Source of the DNA: Prescottella defluvii
GTDB lineage: Bacteria > Actinomycetota > Actinomycetes > Mycobacteriales > Mycobacteriaceae
Reading direction: 5' to 3'
Assembly (NCBI RefSeq): GCF_000738775.1
Contig: NZ_JPOC01000014.1
Coordinates: 1 to 63,101 of the forward strand
DNA: 63,101 nt
Positions 35,001-63,101 of the stretch are shown here, in pieces. The translations under genes were made by a program, and so were the position numbers. A model generated the notes under the pieces. It was not told the origin of the DNA, did not search any database, and saw only the letters and a program-made list of their open reading frames with translations. Within the stretch, counting starts at the first letter, position 1. Every line of letters starts with the position of its first letter.

Positions 35001-36425
35001 CGTCAGCGTCACGGATCCGGATTCGACCGCCACCGCCCCCGGACGGAGCCGCGCACCGTCGAGCAGCAGCCGAGCCAGTGGACGCGGGGCCTCGGCGACG
35101 GATCCGTCCACGCGAACCGGATCGCCGGCCGCACCGACGAGCAGATCCTCGACGGCCGTCGCTCCCGGCACCGTCTCGAACAGCTCCAGGAGGGTCGCGA
35201 ATCGCTCGTGATGCCGGACGAGTTCGCTTCTCGTGTACAACGCCGGGTTGGCCTCGAGATCGACCCGCACCGCGGCACCGGGAACTCCGTCGTACACGTT
35301 CAGCGACAGGTCTTCGACCGGGCCGGTCGACAGGACGTGGAACTCGCCCACCGCGTCGGCGAGTTCGATCTCCCGGCGGAACAGCATCAGATTGACGACG
35401 GGGCCGAAGGACCGCAGCATCGATCCCGCCGAGCCGTCGAAGCGGTACCGCTGGTGCCGCAGGGCCCCGGTCAGTTCGACCGACACCTGCGACACCACCT
35501 CGTCGACCGTTGCGCCGGGTTCGATCCGGACCCGGACGGGAACGATGTTCGCGATCATGGCGCCCGAGCGGCGCATCTTCGCCGTCGTCCGCGCGGAGAC
35601 CGGGAGGCTCAGGACGATGTCGTCGCATCCGGTCATGCGGGCGAGGTAGCACGCCCACGCCGCGATCACGACCGGAGCAACGGATCCGTCACGGGGTTGC
35701 ACCGCACGGACCCGCGAACTCGCAACGAGCGGTACCGCCGAGGGGCGCGGGCGAAACGATTTGGCCGACAGGCTGACCGGGTCGGGAAGCGACGCCAGCC
35801 GGAGTCCCCAATATTCCTCGTCGATCACGAACCGCCGCGATCGTGGATACTCCTGCTCCAGGTCGTGGATCACCTCGAGGCCGGAGGCGGTCGAAGCGGG
35901 GACAGTCTCACCTCTCGCCTCGAGCGTGTACAGCTGGGCGATCCGGTTCATCAAGGTGGTTGCGCCGAACCCGTCGAGTGCGACGTGGTGAACCTTGCCG
36001 TACCAGTAGAAGTGCTCGGGGCCCAATCGAATTGCGGTTGCGGCGATCACACGGTCGGTCACCATGTCGAGCGGCCGGGACCGATCGCGGTCCATCCACG
36101 TGTGGGCCGCCTGCACGGGGTCGGCCGCCGAGCTCAGGTCCACGACGGAGAGCCCGTCCTCCAGGTCGTGGTGGACGAACTGCCTCGGCTCACCGTCCAC
36201 CTCGCACAGGCGCAGCACCGGTGACTGCAGTTCGCGGCTCGCGCGATCGGTTGCCCGCGCGAGCATCTCGACATCGAGGCTCCCCCGAACCTCCACGTAG
36301 TGTGCCATCACACAGGGGGTTTCGGGATCCAACTGCTGCGCGTACCACACGCCGAGCTGGGCTGCGGACAGCGGGAATCGCGCCGTCATCCCGTCGTAAT
36401 CAGGTTGCCACTCAGGAAGATTCAC
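20004..36425 (-). CDS. Five-module non-ribosomal peptide synthetase, (C-A-T)x5-TE
   Basis: The 5473-aa enzyme has five condensation-adenylation-carrier modules and a terminal thioesterase, all on one polypeptide. Condensation HHxxxDG motifs are near 35980 (VHHVALDG), 32910, 29730, 26620 and 23525. Adenylation YTSGTTG-type cores are near 34610, 31490, 28290, 25170 and 22100. Carrier GGxSL serines are near 33475, 30290, 27170, 24050 and 20970. The thioesterase GWSLGG is near 20570. There are no epimerization, methylation or reductase domains. Module 1 begins with a condensation domain, as in lipid-initiated synthetases. Module 2 pocket residues read DFWDIGMVH, one off the threonine code DFWNIGMVHK; the other pockets look hydrophobic and are unassigned. 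The GTG start at 36425 has GGAG 8 bases upstream; an in-frame ATG lies at 36491. No MbtH or phosphopantetheinyl transferase gene is in the window. Confidence 0.95.
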
Positions 36426-36595
36426 CACGACCACTCCCCCCGCGCACGATCGCGCGACGCGCTCACGAGTTCCACTGAAGTTGTGGGCCATCGGTGGGTG
36501 TGGCTAGGTTGTTCCCCACACTCCGAAACAGTCTCACTCGAGAGAGACTTGCGATAAGCCCAGTCCTGCAACATGTTCGACAGGAGTTCAACACG
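36426..36595. promoter_or_regulatory. Divergent promoter region between NRPS and DUF4012 genes
   Basis: This 170-bp gap must start both the 16.4-kb NRPS transcript and the rightward DUF4012 gene. It contains a 6-bp inverted repeat, agtctc (36530-36535) and gagact (36544-36549), and Shine-Dalgarno sequences at both ends (GGGGGGAG complement at 36434-36441; AGGAG at 36582-36586). No known operator was recognised. Confidence 0.5.
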
Positions 36596-49403: not shown

Positions 49404-49474
49404 GCCGATGTAGTTCAATGGTAGAACATCAGCTTCCCAAGCTGAATACGCGGGTTCGATTCCCGTCATCGGCT
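49404..49474 (+). tRNA. tRNA-Gly (anticodon CCC)
   Basis: The 71-base sequence folds as a cloverleaf. The acceptor stem is gccgatg (49404-49410) with catcggc (49467-49473), the anticodon stem is tcagc/gctga, and the loop ttcccaa places CCC at 49436-49438. The T arm is gcggg-ttcgatt-cccgt. CCA is not encoded. A direct-repeat-bounded accessory segment begins 17 bases downstream. Confidence 0.96.
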
Positions 49475-49490
49475 CTCTAACAGACTCACG

Positions 49491-49701
49491 AATTGGAAGC
49501 GCAGCGCGGTCTCCGCCGCCTCAGTTGATGGTTTTAGGCCACGGTCTCGCTATCTACATAGTTTCGACCGCTGACGGTCGGATAGTCGCCGCGGTATCCG
49601 AACGGATGGCGGCTGTCTTCTGCCGTGTTCTATGGGGCGGACGAGGCGGATCGGCGAGATCCGGAAATTTCGCGGACGGGGCGCGCTGCTATCTGCCGGG
49701 C
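49491..49701. repeat. Direct repeat 1 (about 211 bp) at left edge of accessory segment
   Basis: From aattgga to ccgggc this stretch aligns end to end with 54302-54503: I count about 22 mismatches, mostly transitions, and one 9-base insertion (gacgaggcg) in this copy. Both copies hold the small hairpin cgaccg/cggtcg, conserved while its loop differs. It starts 17 bases after the tRNA gene. Confidence 0.85.
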
Positions 49702-49894
49702 GGAGGCGACGACCAGCCAGCCAGAAGAATGTCGCCACGCCGGCGATAATCGAAATCGCAACGTTCCCCAGGACATACGCGCCAAATTTGGCGAAGGTCA
49801 CGTCGCCGCGGAGGATGGCTCGCGGACGTCGTGAGTTCGAAACTAACCGGGCTGTGAACACGGCCTCGCCAGCCGCGGCGGCAGCATTGATCAA
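49550..49894 (-). CDS. Doubtful small membrane-protein frame
   Basis: A 114-aa minus-strand frame contains one convincing hydrophobic helix (GAYVLGNVAISIIAGVATFFWLAG). Its C-terminal half lies within direct repeat 1, and the matching frame is not kept in repeat 2. No ribosome site stands out. It may be a remnant or chance frame. Confidence 0.2.
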   Translation of the reverse strand: MINAAAAAGEAVFTARLVSNSRRPRAILRGDVTFAKFGAYVLGNVAISIIAGVATFFWLAGRRLRPADSSAPRPRNFRISPIRLVRPIEHGRRQPPSVRIPRRLSDRQRSKLCR

Positions 49895-50144
49895 CTGCTA
49901 TACGTGGCCCGTGACATGTCGACACCTCCCAGGCTGGCGATAGCCTGCGGGAACGCCACAAGCTGCGTGCGCGGCGAGGCCGGCGGGCAACGGTGCATCG
50001 CTCGGCGGGCCGGCGGCAAGGGTGCATCTCGCGTCGTCTCACCGACACCCAGCGTGACCATTCCTACCAAGGTGTAACACCAGGCTTGAACGGGTACTCG
50101 ACATCGTGCCGGACCTCACCGGCGCGTAGTGAGGAGCGCTGACA

Positions 50145-50555
50145 ATGAACGACAAGAATCGGACGCCGAGCGAAGAACCCCAATCCGCGCGGGGCGCGCC
50201 CGGGTCCCGTGACGCAGGCTCGGACGAACCCGGAGGCGGCGAGACAGACAGGCCATCCGGTTCGTTCGACGACGATATCGTCACCTCGAGCGGTGAGCCC
50301 GGGTGGACTCGGCCCGACACTCGGAGGGCGAGCCCAGGCGCGGCCGAGGTACCCCCGTACGAGGGACGCACCCGCACAGCAAAGCCTGTCGAGGAACAAG
50401 AAGCCAAGGCTGGAAAGTCGGTGCGAGGAGCAAACTCTGGCGACACGAGCACCCCGGCCGAGGAAGCCAAGCCCACAGAAACCGACGAAGGGACAGGACC
50501 GGCGCACCAGTCTGGCGTACGGCGCGGTGAAGATCACCCTCGCGAAGCAGATTGA
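50145..50555 (+). CDS. Hydrophilic low-complexity hypothetical protein
   Basis: The 136-aa product is rich in Glu, Asp, Ser, Gly, Pro and Arg, with no hydrophobic core, and is probably disordered. A gaggag ribosome site precedes the ATG by about 10 bases. It heads a run of small plus-strand genes (50607, 51157) and the desaturase. No family was recognised. Confidence 0.5.
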   Translation: MNDKNRTPSEEPQSARGAPGSRDAGSDEPGGGETDRPSGSFDDDIVTSSGEPGWTRPDTRRASPGAAEVPPYEGRTRTAKPVEEQEAKAGKSVRGANSGDTSTPAEEAKPTETDEGTGPAHQSGVRRGEDHPREAD

Positions 50556-50606
50556 GCCACCGATCTCACGCCCGAAATCAGTTCCACGAAATGATCGGGA
50601 GCGGTC

Positions 50607-51035
50607 ATGATCCTCATCGGCCTCATCATTATGGTCGCCGCCATCGTCATCGGAGTCGCGGGAGTAATCGCCAACGCGGGTGCCGAACACGCGTTGACCG
50701 GCGACTTCACACTGTTCGGCTACCACGTCACCGGATCCACAGGAGCGCTGTTCCTCTACGGAATCGTCGTCGGCGCGGTGGGCGTCCTCGGACTCAGCCT
50801 CCTCCTCACAGGGGCTCGGCGGACATCACGACGGGAACGCGTCGCGCGAACCCAGCTCAAACAATCACGCCGCAACGAGGCCGCTTTGGCTCAACAGCGC
50901 GACGACCTCGCTGACACGGGGGCACAAACAAGCACCGTCCGGCATGCCGACACCACCACCGGCAGTGCGCGGAGTTGGAAACACCCCTTCGGAGGACAGC
51001 AGGGGCCTCCGTCCACTCCCCGGCCGGCACATTGA
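50607..51035 (+). CDS. Small membrane protein with two N-terminal helices
   Basis: The 142-aa product has two membrane helices (residues of about 2-24, ILIGLIIMVAAIVIGVAGVIA, and 45-68) joined by a loop with FTLFGYHVTGSTG, followed by a basic, Gln-rich cytoplasmic tail. GGGAG lies 5 bases before the ATG. Similar small proteins are common in Rhodococcus and Mycobacterium next to stress-related genes; no function is assigned. Confidence 0.65.
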   Translation: MILIGLIIMVAAIVIGVAGVIANAGAEHALTGDFTLFGYHVTGSTGALFLYGIVVGAVGVLGLSLLLTGARRTSRRERVARTQLKQSRRNEAALAQQRDDLADTGAQTSTVRHADTTTGSARSWKHPFGGQQGPPSTPRPAH

Positions 51036-51156
51036 GACGAAGCAGGGCTCGGTTGAACCATCAGGTCGCGCAATTCACCTCGGTGCCGTGCAGCATCCAG
51101 CATCGCCGGGCGCATCGGACCTCTTCTCTTCCCACAACCGAAAGCAGGTAGACGTC

Positions 51157-51312
51157 ATGATCATTCTAGGAATCGTCCTCGCAGTCGTGGGTGCGGTCGT
51201 CAGCGTCCCCATCCTCTTGTACGTCGGGGTCGCGCTGATCGTCGTCGGTGTGGTGCTCGAGATCATGGGAATGACGGGCCACCCGGTGGCCGGTCGACGT
51301 CACTACTACTGA
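51157..51312 (+). CDS. DUF6131-like small membrane peptide
   Basis: This 51-aa product is two hydrophobic helices (IILGIVLAVVGAVVSVPI and LYVGVALIVVGVVLEIMG) ending in a polar HPVAGRRHYY tail, the typical look of actinobacterial DUF6131 peptides. The ATG at 51157 was chosen inside a longer frame because it gives this clean family-like peptide. It lies 75 bases before the desaturase gene on the same strand. Confidence 0.7.
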   Translation: MIILGIVLAVVGAVVSVPILLYVGVALIVVGVVLEIMGMTGHPVAGRRHYY

Positions 51313-51387
51313 CCCCGTCGGCAGCGTCGCGCCTGGGAACGACATAACTTCCCCTGGCGGGCAAGCCTCGACCCCATAGGAGTGTGT

Positions 51388-52608
51388 ATGGCGATCTCCG
51401 ATATCAGGGAGTATGCGCACCTGACCGGGGAAGATGTCGAGGCGCTCAGCGACGAACTGAACCGGATTCGCTGCGATGTCGCCGCGTCCCTCGGTGGGTC
51501 AGACGCGGCCTACATTCGCCGCGTCGTTGCCTCCCAGAGAGTGCTCGATGCCGCGGCACGATTGGTCATCTACGGCAGCCGGAGCCCAGCCGGCTGGATT
51601 CTCGGAACGGCGGCCCTTGCAGTGGCCAAGAGTGTGGAGAACATGGAGCTTGGGCACAACATCTCCCACGGGCAATGGGACTGGATGAACGACCCGGAAA
51701 TCCACTCCCTCAACTGGGAATGGGACATGGCAGGCCTTTCGTCGCAGTGGCGCTACTCCCACAACTATCGCCACCACGTGTTCAGCAACGTCGTCGGGAT
51801 GGACGAGGACCTCGGCTACGGCGTCCTCCGCGTCACCCGCGACCAACCGTGGAAGCCGCACCATCTGCTGCAACCGCTGCGGAATATGGTGCTGGCTGCC
51901 ACGTTCGAATGGGGCATCGCTCTGCACGGCTTACATTCAGAACACGACCGCACCAACACCGACGGCGAGAAGTCCGCCCACACCCGGGCACTGATCGGCA
52001 AGATCGCCCGCCAGACCGGCAAGGACTACCTGCTCTTTCCCAGCCTCAGCGGGCGGCGCTGGCGACGAACCCTGAAAGCGAATCTGGCCGCGAATCTTCT
52101 GAGGAACGTGTGGGCCTACGTGGTGATCTTTTGCGGGCATTTTCCTGACGGCGCTGAGAAATTCACCCCCACCGAACTCGATAACGAAAGCCAGGCTGAA
52201 TGGTATCTGCGGCAGATACTCGGCGCGGCGAACTTCCGTGCCGGGCCGGTGCTGGCGTTCCTCAGCGGCAACCTCTGCTACCAGATCGAGCATCACCTGT
52301 TTCCCGACCTCCCCAGCAACCGGTACGAGCAGATCGCCCCTCGAGTGCGCGCACTGTGCGACAGGTACGACCTGCCGTACACCACCGGTTCCCTTGCCCA
52401 GCAGTATCTTCTGACCCTGCGAACCATCCACAAACTCACGTTGCCCGACCGGTTCCTGGCCGCGACCCCCGACGACGCCCCGGAGACCGCCTCGGAACTG
52501 AAATTCCACCGCACACCCATGCACGAGCAGGTCGGAACGGGTCCAGCTTCCCGATACGGGCTTCGGACCGCGCTACAGGCACTGGCCGCTTCCCCCCGCA
52601 CCCGCTGA
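51388..52608 (+). CDS. Membrane fatty-acid desaturase
   Basis: The 406-aa protein has the three His boxes of membrane acyl desaturases: HNISHGQWD, HNYRHHVFSN and, late in the chain, QIEHHLFPDLPSNRY, which bind the diiron centre. It should introduce a double bond into acyl-CoA or phospholipid acyl chains and resembles mycobacterial DesA3-type enzymes. The ATG at 51388 has AGGAG 5 bases upstream. The reductase partner seen beside some desaturases is absent here. It lies inside the direct-repeat-bounded segment. Confidence 0.9.
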   Translation: MAISDIREYAHLTGEDVEALSDELNRIRCDVAASLGGSDAAYIRRVVASQRVLDAAARLVIYGSRSPAGWILGTAALAVAKSVENMELGHNISHGQWDWMNDPEIHSLNWEWDMAGLSSQWRYSHNYRHHVFSNVVGMDEDLGYGVLRVTRDQPWKPHHLLQPLRNMVLAATFEWGIALHGLHSEHDRTNTDGEKSAHTRALIGKIARQTGKDYLLFPSLSGRRWRRTLKANLAANLLRNVWAYVVIFCGHFPDGAEKFTPTELDNESQAEWYLRQILGAANFRAGPVLAFLSGNLCYQIEHHLFPDLPSNRYEQIAPRVRALCDRYDLPYTTGSLAQQYLLTLRTIHKLTLPDRFLAATPDDAPETASELKFHRTPMHEQVGTGPASRYGLRTALQALAASPRTR

Positions 52609-52936
52609 CATCACGGGTAAACCAAGCAGAGCCGTGCCGACGCCTCAAACTCGGAGGCAGAGGCGTTGCGCGGCTTCGTCACTGAGTCCGCCGCCGAAGC
52701 CCTGCGCGTCAGGGTGAGTTGAGTCCACTGGTTCACAGCAACCCCGCCTACAGGGCGAGATGCGGATCAACCCGACGATGACGATTTCCACCAACTTGTC
52801 GGTCGAGGACAATGACCGCATGGCCTCTGACCATCCGGGGGTCCTGCGGACGGCGTCGACTGCCAGGTCCGATCCCGCAGAGAGTCCGCGCACGTCGCGG
52901 TGTTCTCCGCGATCCTGAAACGAGAGCACGGGATCT
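52609..52936. other. 328-bp intergenic region
   Basis: A small inverted repeat (cgcct/aggcg near 52650-52676) follows the desaturase gene. Otherwise I see no gene, operator or terminator that stands out. Confidence 0.4.
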
Positions 52937-54088
52937 ATGGGGGCTACGTCTGTGCGAGACCTGCGATACGTTTTCGTCGTGTCTCAACTCGGAACGGTCG
53001 ACGCGGACCACTACCAGTTTGTGCTGGGCTCACCCACCGGGGAGACGTACCTGCCGGAGGAAACCGGCAGCGTCATCGAAGTCGGCCCCAACTTCGCCAC
53101 CATCATGACCGGCATCGCCTACGGACCGGTCACACTGACCATCGACGTCCTCGACGCTGAACCAGCTGCGGTCGGCGACACCGGAGCATGGGGCGTCATC
53201 GAGGAAGCCACAGTCAACCTCACCAAACCGGCGTACGTGCTCACCTTGGACGGCGAGAGAGTTCCGGACTTTCAGAAGTTGCCGATCAAACGAGGCCTGC
53301 ACCGATTCCGGGTGTTCGGCCGCGGACGCGACACCAACGCAGGACAGACCGTCTCCGAGCCGACGGAGCATTACCTGGTCCAGATCTGGAAGACGACGCG
53401 ACCGCAAGAGATGCTGCGGCTGCACAAGACCGACGCCGCATGGGACCAGAGCATCGTCACCCACCCCAAACGCAACTGGTGGGATCCAGATCCGGCCGGC
53501 GACGCCACCCTGTATCTGAAATACGGATATGACCAGATGGCTCAGTGGGCGAAAGACGAAGCGATCCGCTGGGGCGGACGGCCACCGTCGGAGAAGCTCC
53601 GCTCCAACTTCCACGCGATGGGCATCGCCGGTCTCGACCGTCCACTGGCCGATGCAATCACCCGAGCTCGGCCCCCGAAACTGCGTCGCATCGCGGCTTG
53701 GGCTGCCCGCCGCGCATACACGACTGCAGGTATCGCAGAGATCAAGTGGATCCGGCCCGCACTGACAGCCCTGGACCAGGGTGGACCACTACCGCACCCT
53801 TTCGGCGAGCACGAGTCCATGGCGCTATACAAGGCGCTCGAAGACGACCCGGCCATCGATACGACCGTCACCGGCGACGACGTCAGGAACGCCAACGTAC
53901 CCGCTGCCCTACTAGCCATGTACGCCATCTCCACAGCGGTCAAACAAGATCCATTGAACGCCGCCTTCCAGTGCCTGGACATCGCTGCGAAGACCGACGA
54001 CTCCGACTACGCATCTCTCATCAGGGATCTGCGGCGTGAGCTCTTCCCGAAATTGATGCCTGTAGACCAGTACGAGCGATGGATCTGA
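52937..54088 (+). CDS. Unrecognised 383-aa hypothetical protein
   Basis: The N-terminal 170 residues look like a beta-rich domain ending in HYLVQIWKTTRPQEMLRLHKTDAAWDQ, a Trp-containing pattern reminiscent of small immunity or ComJ-like proteins. After NWWDPDP comes a helical, Ala-rich C-terminal part (WAKDEAIRWGG, WAARRAYTTAG, VPAALLAMYAISTAV). There is no signal peptide or membrane helix. It is the last gene of the accessory segment, followed by a 10-bp hairpin and direct repeat 2. I do not recognise the family. Confidence 0.65.
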   Translation: MGATSVRDLRYVFVVSQLGTVDADHYQFVLGSPTGETYLPEETGSVIEVGPNFATIMTGIAYGPVTLTIDVLDAEPAAVGDTGAWGVIEEATVNLTKPAYVLTLDGERVPDFQKLPIKRGLHRFRVFGRGRDTNAGQTVSEPTEHYLVQIWKTTRPQEMLRLHKTDAAWDQSIVTHPKRNWWDPDPAGDATLYLKYGYDQMAQWAKDEAIRWGGRPPSEKLRSNFHAMGIAGLDRPLADAITRARPPKLRRIAAWAARRAYTTAGIAEIKWIRPALTALDQGGPLPHPFGEHESMALYKALEDDPAIDTTVTGDDVRNANVPAALLAMYAISTAVKQDPLNAAFQCLDIAAKTDDSDYASLIRDLRRELFPKLMPVDQYERWI

Positions 54089-54249
54089 CTGACTTCGCGG
54101 CTCACCAACGGCCGGACAACGAAGCTCTCGCGCATCGAATGGCGGACGGCGAATCCACTCTGATCCGTGTGATCGGCGAGCGCCACTCGGTGTGACTACC
54201 CGCGAGTCAGTTCCACCAGTGTGCCTGCGGCCCGGGACAGTACGGCATA

Positions 54250-54278
54250 GGTGAACACCTCTCTCTAGGGTGTTCACC
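54250..54278. terminator. Hairpin after the 383-aa gene
   Basis: The perfect 10-bp arms ggtgaacacc and ggtgttcacc enclose a 9-base loop. There is no T-run, so factor-independent activity is uncertain. Confidence 0.5.
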
Positions 54279-54301
54279 CATTCATGCCCGTTGTGGTCAC
54301 C

Positions 54302-54503
54302 AATTGGATGGGCAGCGCGGTCTCCGCCGCCCCAGTTGGTGGTTTCAGGCCAAGGTCTCGCTATCTGCATAGTTTCGACCGTTGACGGTCGGATAGTTGT
54401 TGCGGTATCCGAGTGGACGGCGGCTGTCTTCTGCCGTGTTCCCTGGGGCGGATCGGCGAGATCCGGAGATTTCGCGGACGGGGCATGCGGTTATCCGCCG
54501 GGC
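54302..54503. repeat. Direct repeat 2 (about 202 bp) at right edge of accessory segment
   Basis: This is the partner of 49491-49701, in the same orientation, about 89% identical by hand alignment. The bases just before it do not match the tRNA-Gly 3' end, so it is not a simple tRNA-site duplication. Confidence 0.85.
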
Positions 54504-54805
54504 ATCACACCGAGAGTCGTAGCGGGGGCGACACGCCGTACATGCACTGACCGGCGAGGTGTACGGGCGGTGTGGGCCAGTTCGGGTTCGCCGAGGTACC
54601 GACCCACACGGATCCAAACAGCGCACGACTCGAGGTCGCGGCGACTTCGAGCCACTGCGACGACCTGGAACATCACTGCGCCACCTTCGGATCAACGGTG
54701 GTCATTTCACTGCCGTGCATGGCACAACTTCGGTGGCGTAATCCTCGGCTACGCCGGGACCGTCGTGGAGTAGTCGGTCCCGGCGCCTGGGATGCGGACC
54801 TGCTG

Positions 54806-55363
54806 TCAGCTGCGCCGGCTCCTGTCGAGAATGTCGATGTCGGTGCGGAAGTCGGCCAGCGTGACCACTGGCGCGTTCGGGTCCTTGCCGAGATCGTCGA
54901 ACTTGCGCAGTTGCACCGCCTGCTCCGCGAATCGTTCCGATTCGAATGCGGCAACTTCATCGGCGTCCATCGTGCCGCCTTGGACTGCCATCGTGTATTT
55001 CGAAGCGTCGGAGAGCTTCTCGTAGTAGCTCGGGTCGACGGCACAGAGGTAACGCTTGGCTGCAACGTGCAGCCTGATCGGTTCCGTCACTGCTTCGTCG
55101 AACCACTGGGACAGCCACGTGGCGGCTGCGGTGTCGTGATGGTTGTCGCTTCCCCGCATGAGGTCGCGTCCGCTTACTGCGCCGGAGAAGTGCCCTACGT
55201 CGTGGAGTACGGCTGCGACGACGACCGTGATCGGCGCTCCCGCCTCGCGGGCCACCCGGCCGGTCTGCAGCATGTGCTGTGCCATCGAGACCTGCTCGCC
55301 GAGGTAGTCCTGGCTCCCTTCCCCCTCGAAGAGGGTGACGATAGCGTCGTAAGCCGAGGTCAT
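54806..55363 (-). CDS. HD-domain oxygenase, PhnZ/TmpB-like (phosphonate C-P bond cleavage)
   Basis: The 185-aa protein keeps the residues that mark PhnZ-type mixed-valent diiron oxygenases. These are the substrate-lid Tyr20 and Glu23 in YLGEQVS, metal ligands His30, His54, Asp55 and His58 (LHDVGH), His76, His99, Lys103 (HVAAK) and an Asp at 156-157 (RKFDD). These enzymes split a 1-hydroxyphosphonate with O2, releasing phosphate and a carboxylate (glycine from PhnZ, glycine betaine from TmpB). Its ATG overlaps the dioxygenase stop (ATGA), so the two steps are co-translated. It could instead be another HD oxygenase such as a myo-inositol-oxygenase relative, but the Y-x-G-E lid motif argues against that. 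Confidence 0.85.
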   Translation of the reverse strand: MTSAYDAIVTLFEGEGSQDYLGEQVSMAQHMLQTGRVAREAGAPITVVVAAVLHDVGHFSGAVSGRDLMRGSDNHHDTAAATWLSQWFDEAVTEPIRLHVAAKRYLCAVDPSYYEKLSDASKYTMAVQGGTMDADEVAAFESERFAEQAVQLRKFDDLGKDPNAPVVTLADFRTDIDILDRSRRS

Positions 55364-56487
55364 CGGTTCCCCTCCGCGACCTGGAGGGTGCTGAGGAGCC
55401 CATCGAGATCTGCGTACGCACCCTGGAGATGCCGTCCGCCGGCCGATGCGAAGGCGGTACGGGAGTGCAGCAGCCTGGTGTTGTCGAAGATGAGACAGTC
55501 GCCCGGGTCGAGTTGGAAATTCAGCTGCGCCTCCGGGGCGTAGATCAGCTCGGCGAAGGACCTGTAGGCGGCGTAGAAGCGCCGCTGCTGATCCGTTGCC
55601 ATCCGGGGGACCTCGATGGATCGGTTGTTGAACCTGATCTCCCGGATCCGCCGCTGGGAGTCGAGGGAGATGAGCGGTACCTGCGCAGCCAGGCGGGTGT
55701 TCTCGCTGCCGAAGCGGTAGACGACCTGGGTGGTGGTGAGGACCTCGAACGATTCGGGGTCGGTTTCGCGGAGCGCGACTGCGGCGGCGAAACCGTCGAC
55801 GAGCCCGGACTCGCCACCGACGGCGGTGTTGTGCAGGCAGTGCAGCAATTGGAGGGTCGGCACGGGGTCGCGATAGGGGTTGTCCGTGTGGGGGCTGATG
55901 GCGCGGCCGGTGAACGCCAAGTTCACCGGGTTCTCCTCGACTCGAACATCGAAGATTTTGCCGTAGTTGGTCTCTCGCACGAACCCGAACCTCTCGGCCA
56001 CGGAGACAACCTGGCCGGGTTCGGTCGGGACGCCACAGAGTACCGCGAACCCGCGGTCGACGACCGACTGCAGGGCATGCGACGGATCGGAAAGGTAAGC
56101 CTCCCAGTCCACCCGCTCCACAGTCGGCAGGTCCGCGGCACGGAACCACAGTTGCTTCGACTCGTGGGCCCGCGCGTCCGCGTATCCGGAACCGGCGTTC
56201 GACAGTAGCTGTCGCAGGCTGAATGTCGAGCGATGTCCGTCGGGCGCGAACTCGACCTCGACATTATCCCCGCGGATCTGCGCATCGGCGATGCGCACGT
56301 CCGCGGGAAGATCGACGATATTGAACAATCGCTGCCCACTGCTGGAGTCTCGACTGTCCTGGCCTTGACATGTGTCCCGCAGCCAGATGGCGGCGATGTC
56401 GATCCGAGCGGTGGGGGTGTTCAGTCGGAGATCACCGTCGGCGACCGACACTGAAACCTGAATGTCTTCCTCGACTTGGCTATACAT
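55360..56487 (-). CDS. GBBH-like Fe(II)/2-oxoglutarate dioxygenase, TmpA-like
   Basis: The 375-aa protein has the gamma-butyrobetaine-hydroxylase layout. An N-terminal DUF971-like domain (AIWLRDTC, residues of about 25-95, with Cys/His zinc-type positions) is followed by a TauD domain. Iron ligands are His200 and Asp202 (PHTDNPY) and His341 (LLHSRTAF), nearly the same spacing as in human GBBH. TmpA, from this subfamily, hydroxylates 2-(trimethylammonio)ethylphosphonate at C1. Coupling to a PhnZ/TmpB-like gene makes that role more likely than carnitine synthesis. The ATG at 56487 gives a family-length protein; an upstream ATG adds an unrelated leader. Confidence 0.85.
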   Translation of the reverse strand: MYSQVEEDIQVSVSVADGDLRLNTPTARIDIAAIWLRDTCQGQDSRDSSSGQRLFNIVDLPADVRIADAQIRGDNVEVEFAPDGHRSTFSLRQLLSNAGSGYADARAHESKQLWFRAADLPTVERVDWEAYLSDPSHALQSVVDRGFAVLCGVPTEPGQVVSVAERFGFVRETNYGKIFDVRVEENPVNLAFTGRAISPHTDNPYRDPVPTLQLLHCLHNTAVGGESGLVDGFAAAVALRETDPESFEVLTTTQVVYRFGSENTRLAAQVPLISLDSQRRIREIRFNNRSIEVPRMATDQQRRFYAAYRSFAELIYAPEAQLNFQLDPGDCLIFDNTRLLHSRTAFASAGGRHLQGAYADLDGLLSTLQVAEGNR

Positions 56488-56765
56488 GTTTGAGGACCTT
56501 GCACGGCAACTGAGACCGGGCAACGAAGTGTCGGTGAACGGGCGGTTTCCGATTGGCGAATCCTGCGGTCCGGCAACTGCGAAGTGCTGGCCGGACGATT
56601 CTTCCGCGCGGTTCAGAGGTAGGAGGATTCGCCGTCGCGTCATGTTCAGGACGTGTTCACCTTGCATACGCGCGAGATATCTTGGCTAGCCAACTTGCGC
56701 ACGGAGAGTCTGTACAACCTGGCCGCGACGACCGACGAGAACGTCCCCCTTCCTTGGAGTTACAC
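56488..56765. promoter_or_regulatory. Divergent promoter region of the phosphonate cluster
   Basis: This 278-bp gap separates the leftward oxygenase genes from the rightward transporter-regulator operon. It contains the palindrome at 56682-56693 and, for the lipoprotein gene, GGAG at 56756-56759 six bases before its GTG. Confidence 0.6.
56682..56693. promoter_or_regulatory. Candidate GntR/HutC-type operator palindrome
   Basis: ttggctagccaa is perfectly self-complementary. Its TGG-CTAG-CCA skeleton resembles operators of HutC-subfamily regulators, for example DasR (TGGTCTAGACCA) and PhnF (TGGTATAGACCA). The local operon encodes a HutC-type regulator. It lies 72 bases before the transporter start codon. 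Confidence 0.5.
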
Positions 56766-57914
56766 GTGCGCAGAGCAACTATCCACAAGAAGTTTCGAGC
56801 CGCCCTGGTCTTTGCCGCAGCGGGAGCTGTAGCCCTGACCTCCGCAGGCTGCACCACGAAGTCCGAGGCATCCGGTTCCGCCGCCGCCACCGCGACCTCC
56901 GCGGTCGAGGCCGGTGGAATGGACGCCCTCATCGCCGCGGCCCAAGCCGAGGGCGCCCTGAATCTCATTGCTACTCCTCGCGACTGGGCCGGCTACGGCG
57001 AGTTGATGGACAAGTTCGCGGCCAAGTACGGAATCACGGTCACGATGGACAACCCGGAGGCCAGTAGTGCCGACGTCGTCAACGCGGTCAAGACCCTTCG
57101 TGGCCAGGACCGGGCGCCGGATGCGGTCGATGTAGGCACCGCGTACGCGATCAGCGGTGACGCGGAGGGGCTGTACGCCCCCTACAAGGTCTCGACCTGG
57201 GACGACATTCCCGAGTCGCACAAGTCGCCGACCGGCACCTGGCATGCGGACTACGGCGGCTACATCTCCATCGGTTGTGATGCCGCGCGGGTTCCTTTGT
57301 GCCCCACTTCGTTCGCCGATCTCGCCAAGCCCGAGTACAAGGGAAAGGTGGCGCTCACCGGAGATCCACTCAAGAGCACCTCGGCGATGATGGCGGTGTG
57401 GTCCGCTGCGCTCGCCAACGGCGGCTCGCTCGACGACGTCGGCCCGGGCATCGACTACTTCGGACGGCTCAAGTCGGCCGGCAACTACGTCCCGGTCAAG
57501 GCGACCGCGGCAACCATTCAGTCCGGTGAGACACCGATCGTCGTGGACTGGGACTACCTGAACGCCGCGCAGGCAAAGGATCTCGCGAAATCGGGAGTCC
57601 AGTGGACCGTCGCGGTCACCGACGACGCGACGATCGGCTCCTACTATGCGCAGGCCGTCAGCGCCACGGCACCGCATCCCGCCGCCGCCCGCCTCTGGCA
57701 GGAGTTTCTGTACAGCGACGAAGGTCAGAACGGCTACCTCGCGGGCTACGCGCGGCCGATCCGGATGCCGGCAATGGAGGCGGCGGGCACCGTCGACCCG
57801 GCGTTGTCCGGCCTTCTCCCGGAGGTCAACGTGCCGGTCGAGTATCCCACCGATGCGCAGTCGGTCGCGGCCAAGACGATGCTGACCCAGTCCTGGGCGA
57901 GCACGGTGCGATAG
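56766..57914 (+). CDS. ABC transporter substrate-binding lipoprotein (phosphonate importer, PhnS-like)
   Basis: The 382-aa precursor starts at GTG and has a basic N-terminus, hydrophobic core and lipobox LTSAGC, giving a lipid-anchored Cys near residue 28. The mature part is a family-1/iron-putrescine-type binding protein (LNLIATPRDWAGYGELMDKFAAKYGI, GYISIGCDAARV, GETPIVVDWDYLN). Gene context (two permeases, ATPase, phosphonate oxygenases) indicates that it binds an aminoalkylphosphonate, possibly a quaternary-ammonium one. It is the first gene of a five-gene operon. Confidence 0.88.
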   Translation: MRRATIHKKFRAALVFAAAGAVALTSAGCTTKSEASGSAAATATSAVEAGGMDALIAAAQAEGALNLIATPRDWAGYGELMDKFAAKYGITVTMDNPEASSADVVNAVKTLRGQDRAPDAVDVGTAYAISGDAEGLYAPYKVSTWDDIPESHKSPTGTWHADYGGYISIGCDAARVPLCPTSFADLAKPEYKGKVALTGDPLKSTSAMMAVWSAALANGGSLDDVGPGIDYFGRLKSAGNYVPVKATAATIQSGETPIVVDWDYLNAAQAKDLAKSGVQWTVAVTDDATIGSYYAQAVSATAPHPAAARLWQEFLYSDEGQNGYLAGYARPIRMPAMEAAGTVDPALSGLLPEVNVPVEYPTDAQSVAAKTMLTQSWASTVR

Positions 57915-58802
57915 ATGAGCGCGCAACTGACGGCACGACGCTCGCGGCGGGCATGGAGCTGGCTCGGTCTCGCTCCCTTCTTCGGCTACCTGTCGGTGTT
58001 CTTCCTACTCCCCACCGCCGTCATCGGATACTCCGCGTTCCGGGTGGGAGGCCCGGACGAAGCGGAATCCTTCGGCGTCGCAAACATTGTCGCGGCACTG
58101 CAAGGCCCCTATCTCGACGGTCTGCGGAACACCGCGCTGATCGCCCTGGTCTGTGCCGTACTCGCCGCGGTTCTCGGCATGGCCCTCGCATACGCGGTCG
58201 CCACCAGCCGGCACAGCGTACTGCGACGTCTCGTGTCGACGAGTTCCGCGGTACTCGCGAACTTCGGTGGTCTGCCACTGGCGTTTCTGTTCGTCGCTGC
58301 GATCGGCAATGCCGGTGTCGTCACCACGTTCGTCCAGGGGCAGTGGGGAGTGTCGTTGAGCGAGGACCTCCACCTGAATCTGTACACCCGCAGTGGAGTT
58401 CAGTTCGTGTACCTGTACTTCCTGATTCCGCTCATGGTGCTCGTGATCACCCCCGCGATCGAGGGCCTACGTCCGGAGTGGCGCGAGGCGGCCGAAGGAC
58501 TCGGCTCACGCGGCTGGCAGTACTGGCGCTACGTCGCGGGGCCGGCGCTCGCCCCGCACTTCCTGGCCAGCATCGCACTGCTCTTCTGCACCGCGTTCTC
58601 TTCCTATGCCACCGCGGAGGCCCTGACGAACGGCACCCTGGCCATCACGCCGTTGCAGATCGACGCGGCCGTATCCGGAAACGTCCTCGTCGGCCAGGAG
58701 AACATCGGGGCCGCATTGGCGCTGACCATGATCGCAGTCGTCGTGCCACTGACGGTGCTCTACCAGTACATGCTCAAGAGGAGGTCGACGTGGTTGCAGT
58801 GA
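57915..58802 (+). CDS. ABC transporter permease 1 (phosphonate importer)
   Basis: The 295-aa protein has six membrane helices and the EAA coupling motif WREAAEGLGSRGWQYWRYVAGP (residues of about 190-211, split here by reading EAAEGLG then VAGP). Its ATG directly follows the lipoprotein stop. With permease 2 it forms the channel of the importer. Confidence 0.88.
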   Translation: MSAQLTARRSRRAWSWLGLAPFFGYLSVFFLLPTAVIGYSAFRVGGPDEAESFGVANIVAALQGPYLDGLRNTALIALVCAVLAAVLGMALAYAVATSRHSVLRRLVSTSSAVLANFGGLPLAFLFVAAIGNAGVVTTFVQGQWGVSLSEDLHLNLYTRSGVQFVYLYFLIPLMVLVITPAIEGLRPEWREAAEGLGSRGWQYWRYVAGPALAPHFLASIALLFCTAFSSYATAEALTNGTLAITPLQIDAAVSGNVLVGQENIGAALALTMIAVVVPLTVLYQYMLKRRSTWLQ

Positions 58803-59686
58803 TGGAGAGGGAGGTCCCGGGATCCGGGGCTGTGCCGGGGCGACCACCCCGACGACCGTCGCCCCGAAGCGGCCGGGTCGGACGTCCGCAGATTCGGTAC
58901 TGGCGCGGTCTCGTGCTGGGCGCTGCTGCGCTCTACTTCGTCGGTCCCGCACTGGTGGCGTTCTGGTTCACCGTCGACGGCCCCGACGGTCCCGCGCTGG
59001 ACACCTATACCCGCCTGACGTCCGCCCCCGGGTTCGGCGACGCGATGATCACGTCCCTGACGCTCGGGGTGCTGGCGGTGGCGATCACCCTCGGGCTCAT
59101 GGTTCCGACCATGCTGCTGGTCCATCTCCGCCTGCCGCGGATGCGGTCCTGGATCGAGGTATGCACGCTACTACCGATGGTGATCCCGCCGGTCGCGCTG
59201 GTCGTCGGGGTTCGCTCGATCCTCGGCTGGGGCAACACCAGTGACTACGTGGAGATCTCCGCCGTGTTCACCGCGCTGCAGGATCACTCCCTGCCGCTGA
59301 TCCTTGCACTGATGTATACGGTGCTGGCACTGCCGTTCACCTACCGCAGCCTCGACGCCGGCTTGCGCGGCTCCCAGCTCACGGTTCTGGTTGAAGCTGC
59401 ACAGAACCTGGGGGCGCGCTGGCCGACAATCCTGTGGCGCGTCGCGCTACCGGCCCTGCGCACGTCGATTCTCAATGCCGGATGTCTGACCTTCGCCCTC
59501 GTCATGGGCGAATACACCCTCGCCAAGATCCTGATCTTCCCGACCTTCCCGGTCTGGCTTGCACAGTCCGGCGCCACCGACGGCCAACTCCAGGTCGCAC
59601 TGTCCCTGCTGAGTCTGGTTGGAACCTGGGCACTCCTGCTGATCGTCGTGATGATCGCAGATCGAAACCGAAAGGTACGCCGATGA
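58790..59686 (+). CDS. ABC transporter permease 2 (phosphonate importer)
   Basis: The 298-aa protein has a Pro/Arg-rich N-terminal tail of about 35 residues, six membrane helices and the EAA motif EAAQNLGARWPTILWRVALP. The GTG at 58790 has GAGGAGG 5 bases upstream and overlaps permease 1 by 13 bases; ATG 58802 is an alternative but is farther from the ribosome site. Confidence 0.86.
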   Translation: MVAVMEREVPGSGAVPGRPPRRPSPRSGRVGRPQIRYWRGLVLGAAALYFVGPALVAFWFTVDGPDGPALDTYTRLTSAPGFGDAMITSLTLGVLAVAITLGLMVPTMLLVHLRLPRMRSWIEVCTLLPMVIPPVALVVGVRSILGWGNTSDYVEISAVFTALQDHSLPLILALMYTVLALPFTYRSLDAGLRGSQLTVLVEAAQNLGARWPTILWRVALPALRTSILNAGCLTFALVMGEYTLAKILIFPTFPVWLAQSGATDGQLQVALSLLSLVGTWALLLIVVMIADRNRKVRR

Positions 59687-60744
59687 TTTCCCCGAACAGA
59701 ATCGACGACATGGGCTCCTCCATCTCGTTCGTCGACGTCACCCGCACCTACGGTGCGGTCCACGCGCTGGACGGGCTCAGCCTCGACATCGCACCCGGCG
59801 AACTGATCGCCCTGCTCGGTCCGTCCGGATGCGGCAAGACAACCGCGCTGCGGATGCTGGCCGGTTTCGACCAACCGACCAGCGGTCAGATCCTCGTCGA
59901 CGGTCTCGACGCCTCGGGCCTGCCCGCCAACCGTCGCGGCATGGGAATGGTGTTCCAGGCCTACAGCCTGTTCCCCACCATGACCGCAGAGGACAACGTC
60001 GCGTTCGGTCTCGAGCTTCGGGGCCGCCGCCACCGTCGCGATCACCGCACCCGCGCCCGCGACCTGCTCGACCTGGTAGGACTCGCGGATCACGCCTCGA
60101 AGTTCCCGCACCAGATGTCGGGCGGTCAGCAACAGCGGGTCGCTCTGGCCCGGGCACTGGCAATAGCGCCACGAGTGCTGCTGCTGGACGAGCCGTTGTC
60201 CGCGCTCGACGCCAAGGTCCGCTACCAGTTGCGCGAAGAAATCCGTCGGCTGCAGCTCGAGTTGGGCGTCACTACGGTCCTGGTCACCCACGACCAGGAG
60301 GAGGCCCTGGCTGTCGGTGATCGCGTTGCGGTGATGCGGGCCGGACGAATGGAGCAGTGTGCACCGCCGAACCAGCTTTACCAACGGCCGGCGACACCGT
60401 TCGTCGCCGAATTCGTCGGCACCATGAACCACGTGCCCGCCACGGTCGTCGATGGGCAACGCGTTCGATTCGGAGATCAGATCCTCGACTGCGACGGTCC
60501 CGTCGAGAAGACCGGCGAGGTCACCGTTCTCGCTCGGCCGGAAGCAGTGCTGGTCGACGAGGCGCCGAACGGCGACACCATCGTCAAGGCCGCGACGTTC
60601 TACGGCGCGACAACTCGACTCCGCCTGGTTCGCCCCGACGGCACCGAGTTGCTCGCGGATGTGGCGAGCCATCGGGGTATTGACCTGCAACCCGGTGTAC
60701 GCGTCGCGGTTTCACTACTCGACAGGCCTGTACTGATCGCATGA
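59683..60744 (+). CDS. ABC transporter ATP-binding protein (phosphonate importer)
   Basis: The 353-aa ATPase shows Walker A GPSGCGKTT, Q-loop VFQAYSLFP, signature MSGGQQQR, Walker B LLLDEPLSALD and switch His in VTHDQEEAL, followed by a C-terminal TOBE-like domain (EVTVLARPEAVLV). It powers the importer. Its ATG overlaps the permease stop (ATGA), and its own stop overlaps the regulator start. Confidence 0.92.
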   Translation: MISPNRIDDMGSSISFVDVTRTYGAVHALDGLSLDIAPGELIALLGPSGCGKTTALRMLAGFDQPTSGQILVDGLDASGLPANRRGMGMVFQAYSLFPTMTAEDNVAFGLELRGRRHRRDHRTRARDLLDLVGLADHASKFPHQMSGGQQQRVALARALAIAPRVLLLDEPLSALDAKVRYQLREEIRRLQLELGVTTVLVTHDQEEALAVGDRVAVMRAGRMEQCAPPNQLYQRPATPFVAEFVGTMNHVPATVVDGQRVRFGDQILDCDGPVEKTGEVTVLARPEAVLVDEAPNGDTIVKAATFYGATTRLRLVRPDGTELLADVASHRGIDLQPGVRVAVSLLDRPVLIA

Positions 60745-61526
60745 GAGAGAATCTGGAGCAGGACCACAGGATGGCAAACGCATCGGCTTCGACGCCGCTG
60801 TACCGGTCCATCGCAGCAGACTTGCGAGCGGGGATCGAGCGCGGCGACTACGACGATGCCGCTCTACCTTCGGAGAACGACCTCGCCGCGAAGTACGGCG
60901 TCTCCCGCGGGACAATTAGGCAATCGTTCGCGTTCCTGCGAGCGACCGGGGTGGTCTCTTCGAGGCGCGGCGCCCGACGGCAAGTACGGAACGGTCCGCG
61001 GGTGCAGTCGATGACCGAACTGATCAGTTTCTCGCGGTGGGCAGTTGCGGTCGGCGAGCGCCCGAGCAGCAGGACGCTGCAGACCGCGTTGGTGGACCCC
61101 TCCGCGCTGGTCCAGGAGAAGCTCGGCCTGGCCGACGGCGAGAAGGCTCTCCACGTCGAGCGACTGCGTCTGCTGAGCGGAAACCCCGCGATGCTCGAAA
61201 GCACCTACTACCCGACGTGGCTCGGAACGGTGCTCGCTGAGATCGATCTCGATACCGAATCGATCACCGAACGACTGGAGGAACGGGGCATCGTCCTCGC
61301 GGATGCAGAACACTCCATTGACGCAGTCGCAGCAACAACGCGGGAGGCCGAGTTGATCGATACCCAGGCCGGGGCGCCACTGCTGCGCACCATACGCCGG
61401 ACGACCGATCCAGCCGGAGCAGTGCTCGAATGCTCGATCGACCTCTACCCCGGCTCTGCGGTGTCATTCGTCGTCCGCAACTCCATCGCGGCAGGAGCCA
61501 CAAGTCGGATCAACTCACCCAGGTGA
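60741..61526 (+). CDS. GntR-family (HutC subfamily) regulator with UTRA domain
   Basis: The 261-aa protein has an N-terminal winged helix (PLYRSIAADLRAGIERGDY, LPSENDLAAKYGVSRGTIRQSFAFLRATG) and a UTRA ligand domain from about residue 95 (LHVERLRLLSGNPAMLESTYYP). Its start overlaps the ATPase stop (ATGA). It probably represses the transporter and oxygenase genes and is relieved by the imported phosphonate or a product; the palindrome at 56682-56693 is the likely binding site. Confidence 0.9.
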   Translation: MRENLEQDHRMANASASTPLYRSIAADLRAGIERGDYDDAALPSENDLAAKYGVSRGTIRQSFAFLRATGVVSSRRGARRQVRNGPRVQSMTELISFSRWAVAVGERPSSRTLQTALVDPSALVQEKLGLADGEKALHVERLRLLSGNPAMLESTYYPTWLGTVLAEIDLDTESITERLEERGIVLADAEHSIDAVAATTREAELIDTQAGAPLLRTIRRTTDPAGAVLECSIDLYPGSAVSFVVRNSIAAGATSRINSPR

Positions 61527-62334
61527 TCCGTCTCCGCGCAAAAGCGCGAAAGTCCAGTTCGGAGCGCTGACGGTTCCCGGACTCGACCCGCGGGCTCAGC
61601 ATCGGCCGCACCCGGTGCTCGATCAAGCGGATCGAGAACAGGACCGCGAGGCATGCACGAATCGTAGATTAGCGTTCGCTCCGCCTGAGGCGCGTCTTTC
61701 CATCAGTTGCCCCCTCCAAGGGCGTTCGCCAATGAAGAAGCGTGGAGCCCGATGACTTCGGAAGCGGCAGTGGCATGTGAAGTGATCGGGAATTTCTCTC
61801 ATCGGAGCACTCACGGGCGTTTCACCGCACTGCGTTCGTTGGTTCCCGACGATGGCGGCGGATCGCTGCTGGCTCCGCTTCTGCTCACAGTTGCAGCCGA
61901 TGCCGCGGCGCACTGATGTCGGGGCCGCTCAACATGTTTCTCCGACGCCGCGACCCCGCCTAGTTCTATCCGCGGGAGATCTGAAGGTCACCAACCTGGA
62001 ACTCGTCCAGGCTTGTGCGATCACGGGGTCTCGCCATGGTTGACTACCGATCGGTCGGCGTAGCCAAAATGCCTGCTGCCCAATCCCGGCCACGATTGGT
62101 GAACAGGACACTCGCGTGCAGCACTGTGCGATTCAGAAGTCGGCCGCAGCGACAAGCTCTCGACACATTCCTGTGCGACCGATTGGTTCGCCTTGTGCCG
62201 GTTCAGGTCACAGGAACATCTCGTTTTCATGGGAAGCCGCGGGGGTTCTCGTCACAGATTGGTGAACTGTGCACGCAAGAAAGGCCGTCCGATCACGAAG
62301 TGAAGTTCTTTCCAGCTAGCGAGAGTGAGAGACC
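61527..62334. other. 808-bp region without a convincing gene
   Basis: It holds a small hairpin, cgcgc-aaaa-gcgcg (61535-61548), just after the regulator gene, and an 11-bp direct repeat, gattggtgaac, at 62094-62104 and 62257-62267, upstream of the pentapeptide-repeat gene. Base composition is less GC-rich than its surroundings. Open frames on both strands look like chance. Confidence 0.45.
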
Positions 62335-62991
62335 ATGACGTTCAAGACGGGCAATTCCGAATCCAGCACAAGACGGAGGGGCGCGAAAAGCCGCCGGATG
62401 GGTGCGGTCATCGCCAGTACCGCCATCCTGACGGTGGCCGGTCTGGCCTCTGCGGCCCCCGCGTCCGCCGCCCCCATCGTCATCGGCACCTGCACCATCT
62501 ACAACGCTGACATACCACCTGTCACCTCCTGCCCGGGAGCAGATCTCAGTAGAGCGGAGCTCCAAGGCGCGATGCTCGATGGTGCGAACCTCGCTGGCGC
62601 AAACCTCATCTACGCTGACCTCAGCGACGCGGATCTGCACCACATTGATCTACGCGGCGCGAACCTCGCTGGCGCAAACCTCGCGCGCGCGGAAATGCTC
62701 GGCGCGAACCTCGCTGGCGCAATCCTCCCTGACGCGTTCCTCGCCCATGCGAACCTCACTGGCGCGAACTTTTCTGGTGCGTTCCTGAATGGGGCGTATC
62801 TCGGTGGCGCGAACGTGTACGGCGCAAACTTCACGGATGCGGACTTCGTGGATCTCACCGGCACCGTTTCCATCCCTCCCGTGCAGCTACCGGGTCCTGC
62901 TGGCCCCGCCGGCCCTGCTGGCCCCGCCGGTCCTACCGGTCCTGGTTCGGTGGAGAGCCTGTTCGGTTCCCTCGGTTCTTCCGACTCCTGA
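62335..62991 (+). CDS. Secreted pentapeptide-repeat protein with short collagen-like tail
   Basis: The 218-aa precursor has a basic N-terminus with RRR and SRR, a hydrophobic segment (MGAVIASTAILTVAGLA) and a likely cleavage site near ASAAP (about residue 46), so it is exported. Residues of about 65-165 are pentapeptide repeats of the A(N/D)LxxA type, predicted to form a right-handed quadrilateral beta-helix. Residues of about 182-202 are Gly-Pro-Ala triplets like collagen. A GAGAG ribosome site precedes the ATG. Its function is unknown; the fold is best known from cytosolic gyrase-protecting proteins, and secretion points to a different, perhaps surface, role. Confidence 0.85.
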   Translation: MTFKTGNSESSTRRRGAKSRRMGAVIASTAILTVAGLASAAPASAAPIVIGTCTIYNADIPPVTSCPGADLSRAELQGAMLDGANLAGANLIYADLSDADLHHIDLRGANLAGANLARAEMLGANLAGAILPDAFLAHANLTGANFSGAFLNGAYLGGANVYGANFTDADFVDLTGTVSIPPVQLPGPAGPAGPAGPAGPTGPGSVESLFGSLGSSDS

Positions 62992-63003
62992 GCCGTGACA
63001 GAT

Positions 63004-63036
63004 CGTGTCCCGGGGCCGTTGCGGCTCCGGGGCACG
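63004..63036 (+). terminator. Terminator hairpin after the pentapeptide-repeat gene
   Basis: A 15-bp GC-rich stem with two G-T pairs (63004-63018 with 63022-63036) and a 3-base loop begins 12 bases after the stop. Confidence 0.75.
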
Positions 63037-63101
63037 GTTCCGCCCGGCACCGTCCGGGGAGCGTGCGCTCGGTCGTCTAGCTGTGATGTCCAGGGAGGTT
63101 G

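Follow-up and report, generated by a model that had tools for sequence, protein, structure and literature searches.

What does a small divergent gene cluster in the actinobacterium Prescottella defluvii take up and degrade? The cluster lies at positions 54806 to 61526 of contig NZ_JPOC01000014.1, which was analysed in its entirety (63,101 bases, referred to here as the window) and belongs to a genome of 5.13 Mb in 265 contigs. It encodes an Fe/2-oxoglutarate (Fe/2OG) dioxygenase and an HD-domain oxygenase, and divergently from these an ABC importer and a GntR-type regulator. On the sequence evidence, the cluster is in all probability a regulated import-and-degrade module for 2-(trimethylammonio)ethylphosphonate (TMAEP, phosphonocholine), which would be converted to glycine betaine and phosphate. 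The enzyme pair is already known; what appears to be new here is the candidate operator TTGGCTATACAA at the starts of tmpA and of the binding-protein gene, together with related importers elsewhere that carry the same operator, a HAD hydrolase and a phosphocholine-specific phospholipase C (PC-PLC) without tmpAB. No description of the importer, the operator or the phospholipase C (PLC) link was found in the titles and abstract openings of the open-licence literature, and one may be in print elsewhere. The genes, order and strands given in the initial annotation were all borne out by the open reading frame (ORF) list and Pfam matches from which the following layout was drawn.

54806..55363, minus strand: tmpB-like HD-domain diiron oxygenase (PDB match, residues, tree)
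55360..56487, minus strand: tmpA-like Fe/2OG dioxygenase, TauD-family by Pfam (NCBIfam, PDB match, tree, residues)
56476..56487: proposed operator 1, TTGGCTATACAT, overlapping the tmpA start codon
56682..56693: proposed operator 2, TTGGCTAGCCAA, a perfect palindrome 5' of the gene for the binding protein
56766..57914, plus strand: lipoprotein solute-binding protein (PF13343, PhnS/AepX/AepS family; GTG start, lipobox by eye)
57915..58802, plus strand: ABC permease 1 (BPD_transp_1, PF00528)
58799..59686, plus strand: ABC permease 2 (BPD_transp_1, PF00528; PhnV-like at 52 bits, below cut-off)
59683..60744, plus strand: ABC ATPase (best model PhnT2, 393 bits against a cut-off of 457.7)
60741..61526, plus strand: GntR/UTRA (HutC-type) regulator, presumed repressor acting on operators 1 and 2

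The importer and regulator genes form a five-gene operon (56766-61526, plus strand) divergent from tmpA-tmpB. ATGA overlaps join tmpA to tmpB, permease 2 to the ATPase and the ATPase to the regulator, and the binding-protein gene abuts that of permease 1. The dioxygenase reading frame has a possible upstream opening at 56667; the ATG at 56487 was preferred because the three closest homologues among the matches listed (Rhodococcus, Nocardia) align from residue 1.

The enzyme pair

The dioxygenase scores 420 bits against the NCBIfam TmpA model NF049936 (cut-off 400) and 352 bits against the gamma-butyrobetaine dioxygenase (GBBH) model TIGR02409, under its cut-off of 414.75; in a phmmer search of the PDB, TmpA was matched at 1.8e-84, GBBH at 5e-47 and DfmD at 5e-33. 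His200, Asp202 and His341, put forward earlier as metal-binding residues, align with the Fe ligands (numbering from the ATG at 56487). The DUF971-like N-terminal domain described with them is present as a near-match to PF06155, its 22.0 bits falling marginally under the Pfam cut-off of 22.8; a PF06155 search of the genome itself gave no match, and likewise none in every control.

The phosphonate ligands of TmpA are given as N187, N287 and R288 in the published work (PMC9296572), and the residues aligned to them in the window are N189, N288 and R289. Residue frequencies were counted over 81 collected homologues (rows of more than 250 residues, by which loci L054 and L056 dropped out). The equivalent of R289 is arginine in all 81, alanine in human GBBH and threonine in DfmD, while N189 is matched by asparagine in 79 and N288 in 74. 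The window residues Y175, F179, F192 and Y358, all four aromatic, align with Y177, W181, Y194 and Y366 of human GBBH, its aromatic cage positions. Two GBBH-like actinobacterial genes found in two genomes of the order (L191 and L192) have glutamine at the TmpA arginine position and histidine at two cage positions.

A quick maximum-likelihood tree of 87 rows places the window dioxygenase in a TmpA group of 83 rows that includes 6NPB (SH-aLRT 98), with human GBBH, DfmD and the two GBBH-like rows outside. It clusters there with Rhodococcus and Nocardia sequences (six rows, SH-aLRT 100), which are nested in an actinobacterial TmpA group (72 rows, SH-aLRT 96) that leaves out one Frankia row (L071).

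The HD protein is closest in the PDB to TmpB (6NPA, 6.6e-40), followed by PhnZ (6.6e-26). Retention of Tyr20, Glu23 and the diiron ligands had been reported, and Y20, E23, H30, H54, D55, H76, H99 and D156 are indeed invariant in an alignment of 22 rows. These residues make up the YxxE loop and the H..HD..H..H..D ligand motif, whose roles are described in PMC8177086; the motif is not TmpB-specific because PhnZ has it as well. A quick tree built from 88 rows has the window protein in a TmpB clade of 82 rows with 6NPA (SH-aLRT 97). Outside this clade are PhnZ, one PhyH-linked, two C-P-lyase-linked and one PLC-linked HD protein, as well as the HD protein of the TmpA locus L023. Phylogeny had been named at the outset as a check of the annotation, and it groups the dioxygenase with TmpA, apart from GBBH and DfmD, and the HD protein with TmpB, apart from PhnZ. 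As far as such comparisons go, every feature tested fits a TmpA/TmpB pair, the strict TmpB score being the one exception. The C-P lyase marker PhnJ was not found in the genome.

Distribution of TmpA loci

TmpA relatives were collected by scanning genome contigs (tblastn, E <= 1e-3), and at least 580 were found; GBBH-like ones may be among them because of this cut-off. The best 80 of these at least 580 were analysed, and all counts below out of 80, of 71 actinobacterial or of nine proteobacterial TmpA loci refer to this set. By record title, 71 of the 80 are actinobacterial (45 of them Streptomycetaceae) and nine are proteobacterial. An actinobacterial version had been expected to be unusual, and this was not borne out. 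The module is rare only near the window: TmpA occurs in one of the 14 genomes of the genus, that of the window, and among the 397 genomes of the order 101 show some TmpA match, mostly short and TauD-like, with four above the cut-off including the window's own.

In 76 of the 80 homologous loci a TmpB homologue lies 3' of TmpA, in the same orientation and no more than 300 nt away, which argues against a chance pairing. Among the remaining four, TmpB is 1 kb distant in L023 and absent from the stretch examined in L057, L061 and L079. A GntR gene is nearby in 60 of the 71 actinobacterial loci and a binding protein in 41, and the set occurs in 37 (the second permease being optional); these counts are lower bounds because some stretches end at contig ends. 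Neither a GntR gene nor a binding protein accompanies any of the nine proteobacterial loci. Binding protein and TmpB occur together in 43 of 83 loci examined, in several gene orders and in none with the exact order of the window.

A TmpA-like gene on the Pseudomonas aeruginosa plasmid pF045_1 (L205, 3959-9026) scores 347 bits, under the cut-off, and has a divergent HD gene, with genes for a choline-binding protein, choline dehydrogenase and an aldehyde dehydrogenase as neighbours. Its HD neighbour gave no match to the HD-oxygenase models at 1e-15 and matched PF01966 only, and the locus was set aside as evidence because this neighbour fits none of those models.

A candidate operator

Motif discovery was carried out on the divergent intergenic region together with ten regions upstream of tmpA and binding-protein genes, from five loci of the Rhodococcus/Nocardia group. 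A shared 16-mer was found with a total distance of 14, compared with 46-51 in four shuffles. When up to two mismatches are allowed, its core TTGGCTATACAA has just two occurrences across the window, at 56476 and 56682. With up to one mismatch, the operator was found in 46 of the 60 GntR-bearing actinobacterial TmpA loci, in 45 of these 46 near the start of tmpA, the GntR gene or the binding-protein gene, and in none of the eleven without GntR (Fisher p 1.7e-6, indicative only because the rows are related). The discovery loci L001-L003 are among the 46, and the out-of-sample count is 43 of 57. Twelve shuffled motifs gave 0-2 matches and the real motif 53, while 79 order-wide importer loci (1.39 Mb) held none at up to one mismatch and two at up to two.

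The link to phosphocholine-specific phospholipase C

Four relatives from the genus that lack TmpA (G001, G002, G005 and G007) carry related genes for the GntR regulator, binding protein, permeases and ATPase, followed by those for a HAD hydrolase and a PC-PLC, and these loci have the exact operator. They count as one event because they represent one orthologous locus. The PC-PLC model TIGR03396 gave 666 and 672 bits in the two genus relatives scanned (cut-off 580), and the copy in G002 is in pieces. In a binding-protein tree for which order-wide and tmp-linked rows were thinned, the window protein belongs to a tmp-linked Rhodococcus/Nocardia group of six, and the binding proteins of the four PLC-type loci are nested in a tmp-linked clade made up mostly of streptomycete sequences (28 rows, SH-aLRT 98), from which all 26 order-wide rows sampled are absent. 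A HAD gene also lies 3' of the ATPase gene in 28 of the 80 TmpA loci; the window and all 79 order-wide importer loci are without it. An SMR-family gene was found in 19 of the 80 and in six PLC loci. A PLC adjoining TmpAB in L007 and G696 shares 68% identity with that of the genus relatives, and a more distant PLC (47%) adjoins TmpAB in L017.

A family-wide search of 394 genomes gave 82 places with a PLC at least 70% identical to that of L007, of which 26 were analysed. TmpA/B and/or the importer occur within about 9 kb in ten of the 26 (L209, L229, L232, L234, L240, L241, L243, L244, L247 and L248) and in none of 33 loci whose PLC is at most 53% identical (Fisher p 8e-5; a few stretches are short in both sets). 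Three of the 33 have an ATPase match without a binding protein, two of them with a GntR match of 32-33%. TmpAB was confirmed beyond GntR in four cases (G887, G848, G866 and G903) and was not found within 3 kb in G805. This PLC occurs at 69% or more in 18 of 49 TmpA-bearing genomes searched, Rhodococcus tukisamuensis included. In five of them it is on the TmpA contig within 26 kb (L007, L058, L049, L035 and L042), and in another 12 it is distant by coordinates or outside the contig check. A sixth case on the TmpA contig, L051, was disproved. The genome of the window has two PC-PLCs, and the one compared is of a generic type (36%).

The operator was expected right upstream of the PLC gene and was found within 700 nt in none of 28 cases. 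In six loci, three of which have neither TmpAB nor a binding protein in the stretch, the distance from the operator to the PLC match downstream is 1.6-2.1 kb. In the three loci checked (L240, L243 and L245) the operator precedes a gene that adjoins the PLC gene and encodes an Exo_endo_phos protein; this match is weak (below the Pfam cut-off in L240) and no usable PDB relative was found. As a separate observation, an HD-oxygenase gene on a Novosphingobium plasmid (L204, 1635-4549; Phn-HD 204 bits, under the cut-off) is divergent from a PC-PLC gene.

Phosphocholine is the ester counterpart of TMAEP, and related importers with a shared operator beside PC-PLC therefore favour a choline-type ligand over 2-aminoethylphosphonate (2-AEP). 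The combined pattern suggests one regulon handling both TMAEP and phosphocholine. We give an even chance to an actinobacterial choline-phosph(on)ate regulon in which GntR repressors with TTGGCTATACAA operators would control related importers and phosphate-release modules that are interchangeable: TmpA/TmpB would act on TMAEP, and a HAD hydrolase with a secreted PC-PLC (in some cases with the Exo_endo_phos protein) on phosphocholine-type lipid head groups. The version in the window, which lies in variable DNA next to a tRNA-Gly, would then be pared down to the phosphonate module. Through release from phosphonolipids, the secreted PLC may also supply TMAEP, whose natural source would then be lipids.

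Proposed function and alternatives

The genes, the catalytic and ligand residues, the clade placements and the conservation of the operator are read directly from the sequence. In the scheme that we infer from them, which extends to substrate, products, stereochemistry, transport direction, operator-binding protein, repression and inducer, the binding protein and ABC importer would take up a quaternary-ammonium phosphonate. TmpA would hydroxylate C1 of TMAEP, the carbon adjoining phosphorus, with Fe(II), O2 and 2-oxoglutarate, and the mixed-valent diiron centre of TmpB would cleave the C-P bond of (R)-1-hydroxy-TMAEP to yield phosphate and glycine betaine. The GntR regulator would repress both divergent units through TTGGCTATACAA-type operators, and the ligand would release repression. 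Model, PDB, tree and domain evidence supports the initial annotation of a TmpA/TmpB pair accompanied by an importer of its own and by a regulator of the HutC type. The HutC label holds for the GntR/UTRA domain architecture and not for the HutC equivalog TIGR02018 (95 against 220 bits). A quaternary-ammonium substrate had also been favoured, and R289, the cage positions, the trees and the context of operator and PC-PLC-linked importers point the same way, the substrate itself staying inferred.

Several observations weigh against this assignment. The HD protein misses the cut-offs of both the TmpB model NF049941 (183 against 300 bits) and the Phn-HD model (204 against 214.6); on the former the Rhodococcus orthologue also has 183 bits, while Labrenzia passes with 352. 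The Rhodococcus TmpA orthologue scores 392 bits against the TmpA cut-off of 400, and the trees of both enzymes are quick ones with long branches (a tool warning was issued for that of TmpA). The N189 equivalent is histidine in two of the 81 homologues, that of N288 is serine, aspartate or histidine in seven, and position 192, a tyrosine in TmpA, is phenylalanine in the window and in 68 of the 81, tyrosine in nine and non-aromatic in four; substrate specificity may therefore vary. The operator is missing at up to one mismatch from 14 of the 60 GntR-bearing loci. All importer subunits fall under the curated phosphonate-transporter cut-offs, those of the PhnSTUV 2-AEP models included, and TmpAB is not nearby in 79 of 80 order-wide binding-protein loci (80 were taken in and one further listed place, G032, was left out). 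The idea that every importer of this family is paired with PC-PLC or TmpAB was rejected on the same loci (0/80 with PLC, 1/80 with TmpAB), whose neighbour clustering, with families judged by eye, gave no nameable metabolic partner.

The same chemistry might act on AEP, N-methyl-AEP or N,N-dimethyl-AEP, with the importer being an AEP importer. Several of the best-named models of the importer are 2-AEP transporter components, a cage tyrosine is changed to phenylalanine, and PF13343 proteins (PhnS, AepX and AepS) are part of 2-AEP transport according to PMC8316502. We nevertheless regard this as unlikely: TmpA is reported to be highly substrate-specific in PMC10574752, the importer is under the AEP cut-offs, and the related importer clade accompanies a phosphocholine-specific PLC. 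The first enzyme here, moreover, is of the GBBH type. The 2-AEP hydroxylase PhnY* is PhyH-type and so of another family. A GBBH of carnitine synthesis, with the HD protein as a hydrolase, is still less credible and was rejected, even though GBBH and trimethyllysine dioxygenase are the second-best NCBIfam models of the dioxygenase; the score under the GBBH cut-off, the tree placement, R289 and the conserved HD oxygenase partner with its YxxE loop all speak against it. A stronger contender, though we would not bet on it, is that phosphocholine is what the importer and repressor chiefly serve, with TmpAB as an add-on for the phosphonate analogue; this is compatible with the proposed enzyme function. 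The GntR and importer operons with HAD hydrolase and PC-PLC of the four TmpA-less genus relatives, their identical operator and the HAD gene following the ATPase gene in many TmpA loci favour it, whereas neither HAD nor PLC is present in the window or in the Rhodococcus/Nocardia-group stretches examined.

Comparison with known systems

The closest characterised system is TmpA/TmpB of Leisingera caerulea (PDB 6NPB and 6NPA), which shares with the window the adjacent genes, the N,N,R phosphonate ligands and the HD diiron oxygenase with YxxE. Plasmid-encoded TmpA proteins of alphaproteobacteria share 40-41% identity with the window TmpA, and three proteobacterial loci share 44-49%. Three plasmid loci have LysR-type regulators nearby, whereas the window has a GntR/UTRA regulator and a linked ABC importer. 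The oxidative PhnY*/PhnZ pathway for 2-AEP has the HD oxygenase family and the two-step logic in common with the window, but here the HD protein groups with TmpB and the first enzyme is GBBH-type, in contrast to the PhyH-type PhnY*. Fold family, Fe ligands and aromatic cage positions are shared with gamma-butyrobetaine dioxygenase, from which the window enzyme differs by its score and by R289, an alanine in the human protein. The 2-AEP importers PhnSTUV, AepXVW and AepSTU likewise pair a PF13343-family binding protein with the permease and ATPase parts of an ABC transporter, but the window subunits are all under the curated cut-offs.

The TMAEP pathway characterised in L. caerulea would thus extend to an importer-linked, regulator-controlled form common in actinobacteria, and the cluster offers a candidate TMAEP importer, regulator and operator. 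The PC-PLC link makes the origin of TMAEP and the reason for its breakdown testable.

Genomic setting

The left flank of the window is matched by all 13 genus relatives. The match ends at 49475-49478, the 3' end of tRNA-Gly(CCC) (49404..49475, plus strand), in 12 of the 13 and at 49701 in G010. GC content is 64.3% right of the tRNA and 69.1% left of it. Compared with the relatives, window positions 49476-63101 are variable DNA starting at the tRNA-Gly(CCC) 3' end. A direct repeat of about 210 bp (49486-49701 and 54297-54503, about 89% alike) encloses a desaturase gene and an orphan ORF, and the tmp cluster comes after this block. The orphan ORF (52937-54088, 383 aa) has no Pfam or NCBIfam match at E 0.001; a 93% copy lies less than 100 bases after the tRNA-Gly of G004, and a 91% copy of the desaturase block is found elsewhere in G005. 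A short stretch at 52676-52827 resembles, at 87-89%, transposase regions of the IS3 family from Rhodococcus plasmids, recurs at contig ends of G012 and is probably an insertion sequence remnant.

Downstream of the regulator gene, a pentapeptide-repeat protein with an apparent signal sequence (by eye) is encoded at 62335-62991. An ORF of 5495 codons at 20004-36491 on the minus strand perhaps encodes a giant multimodular enzyme.

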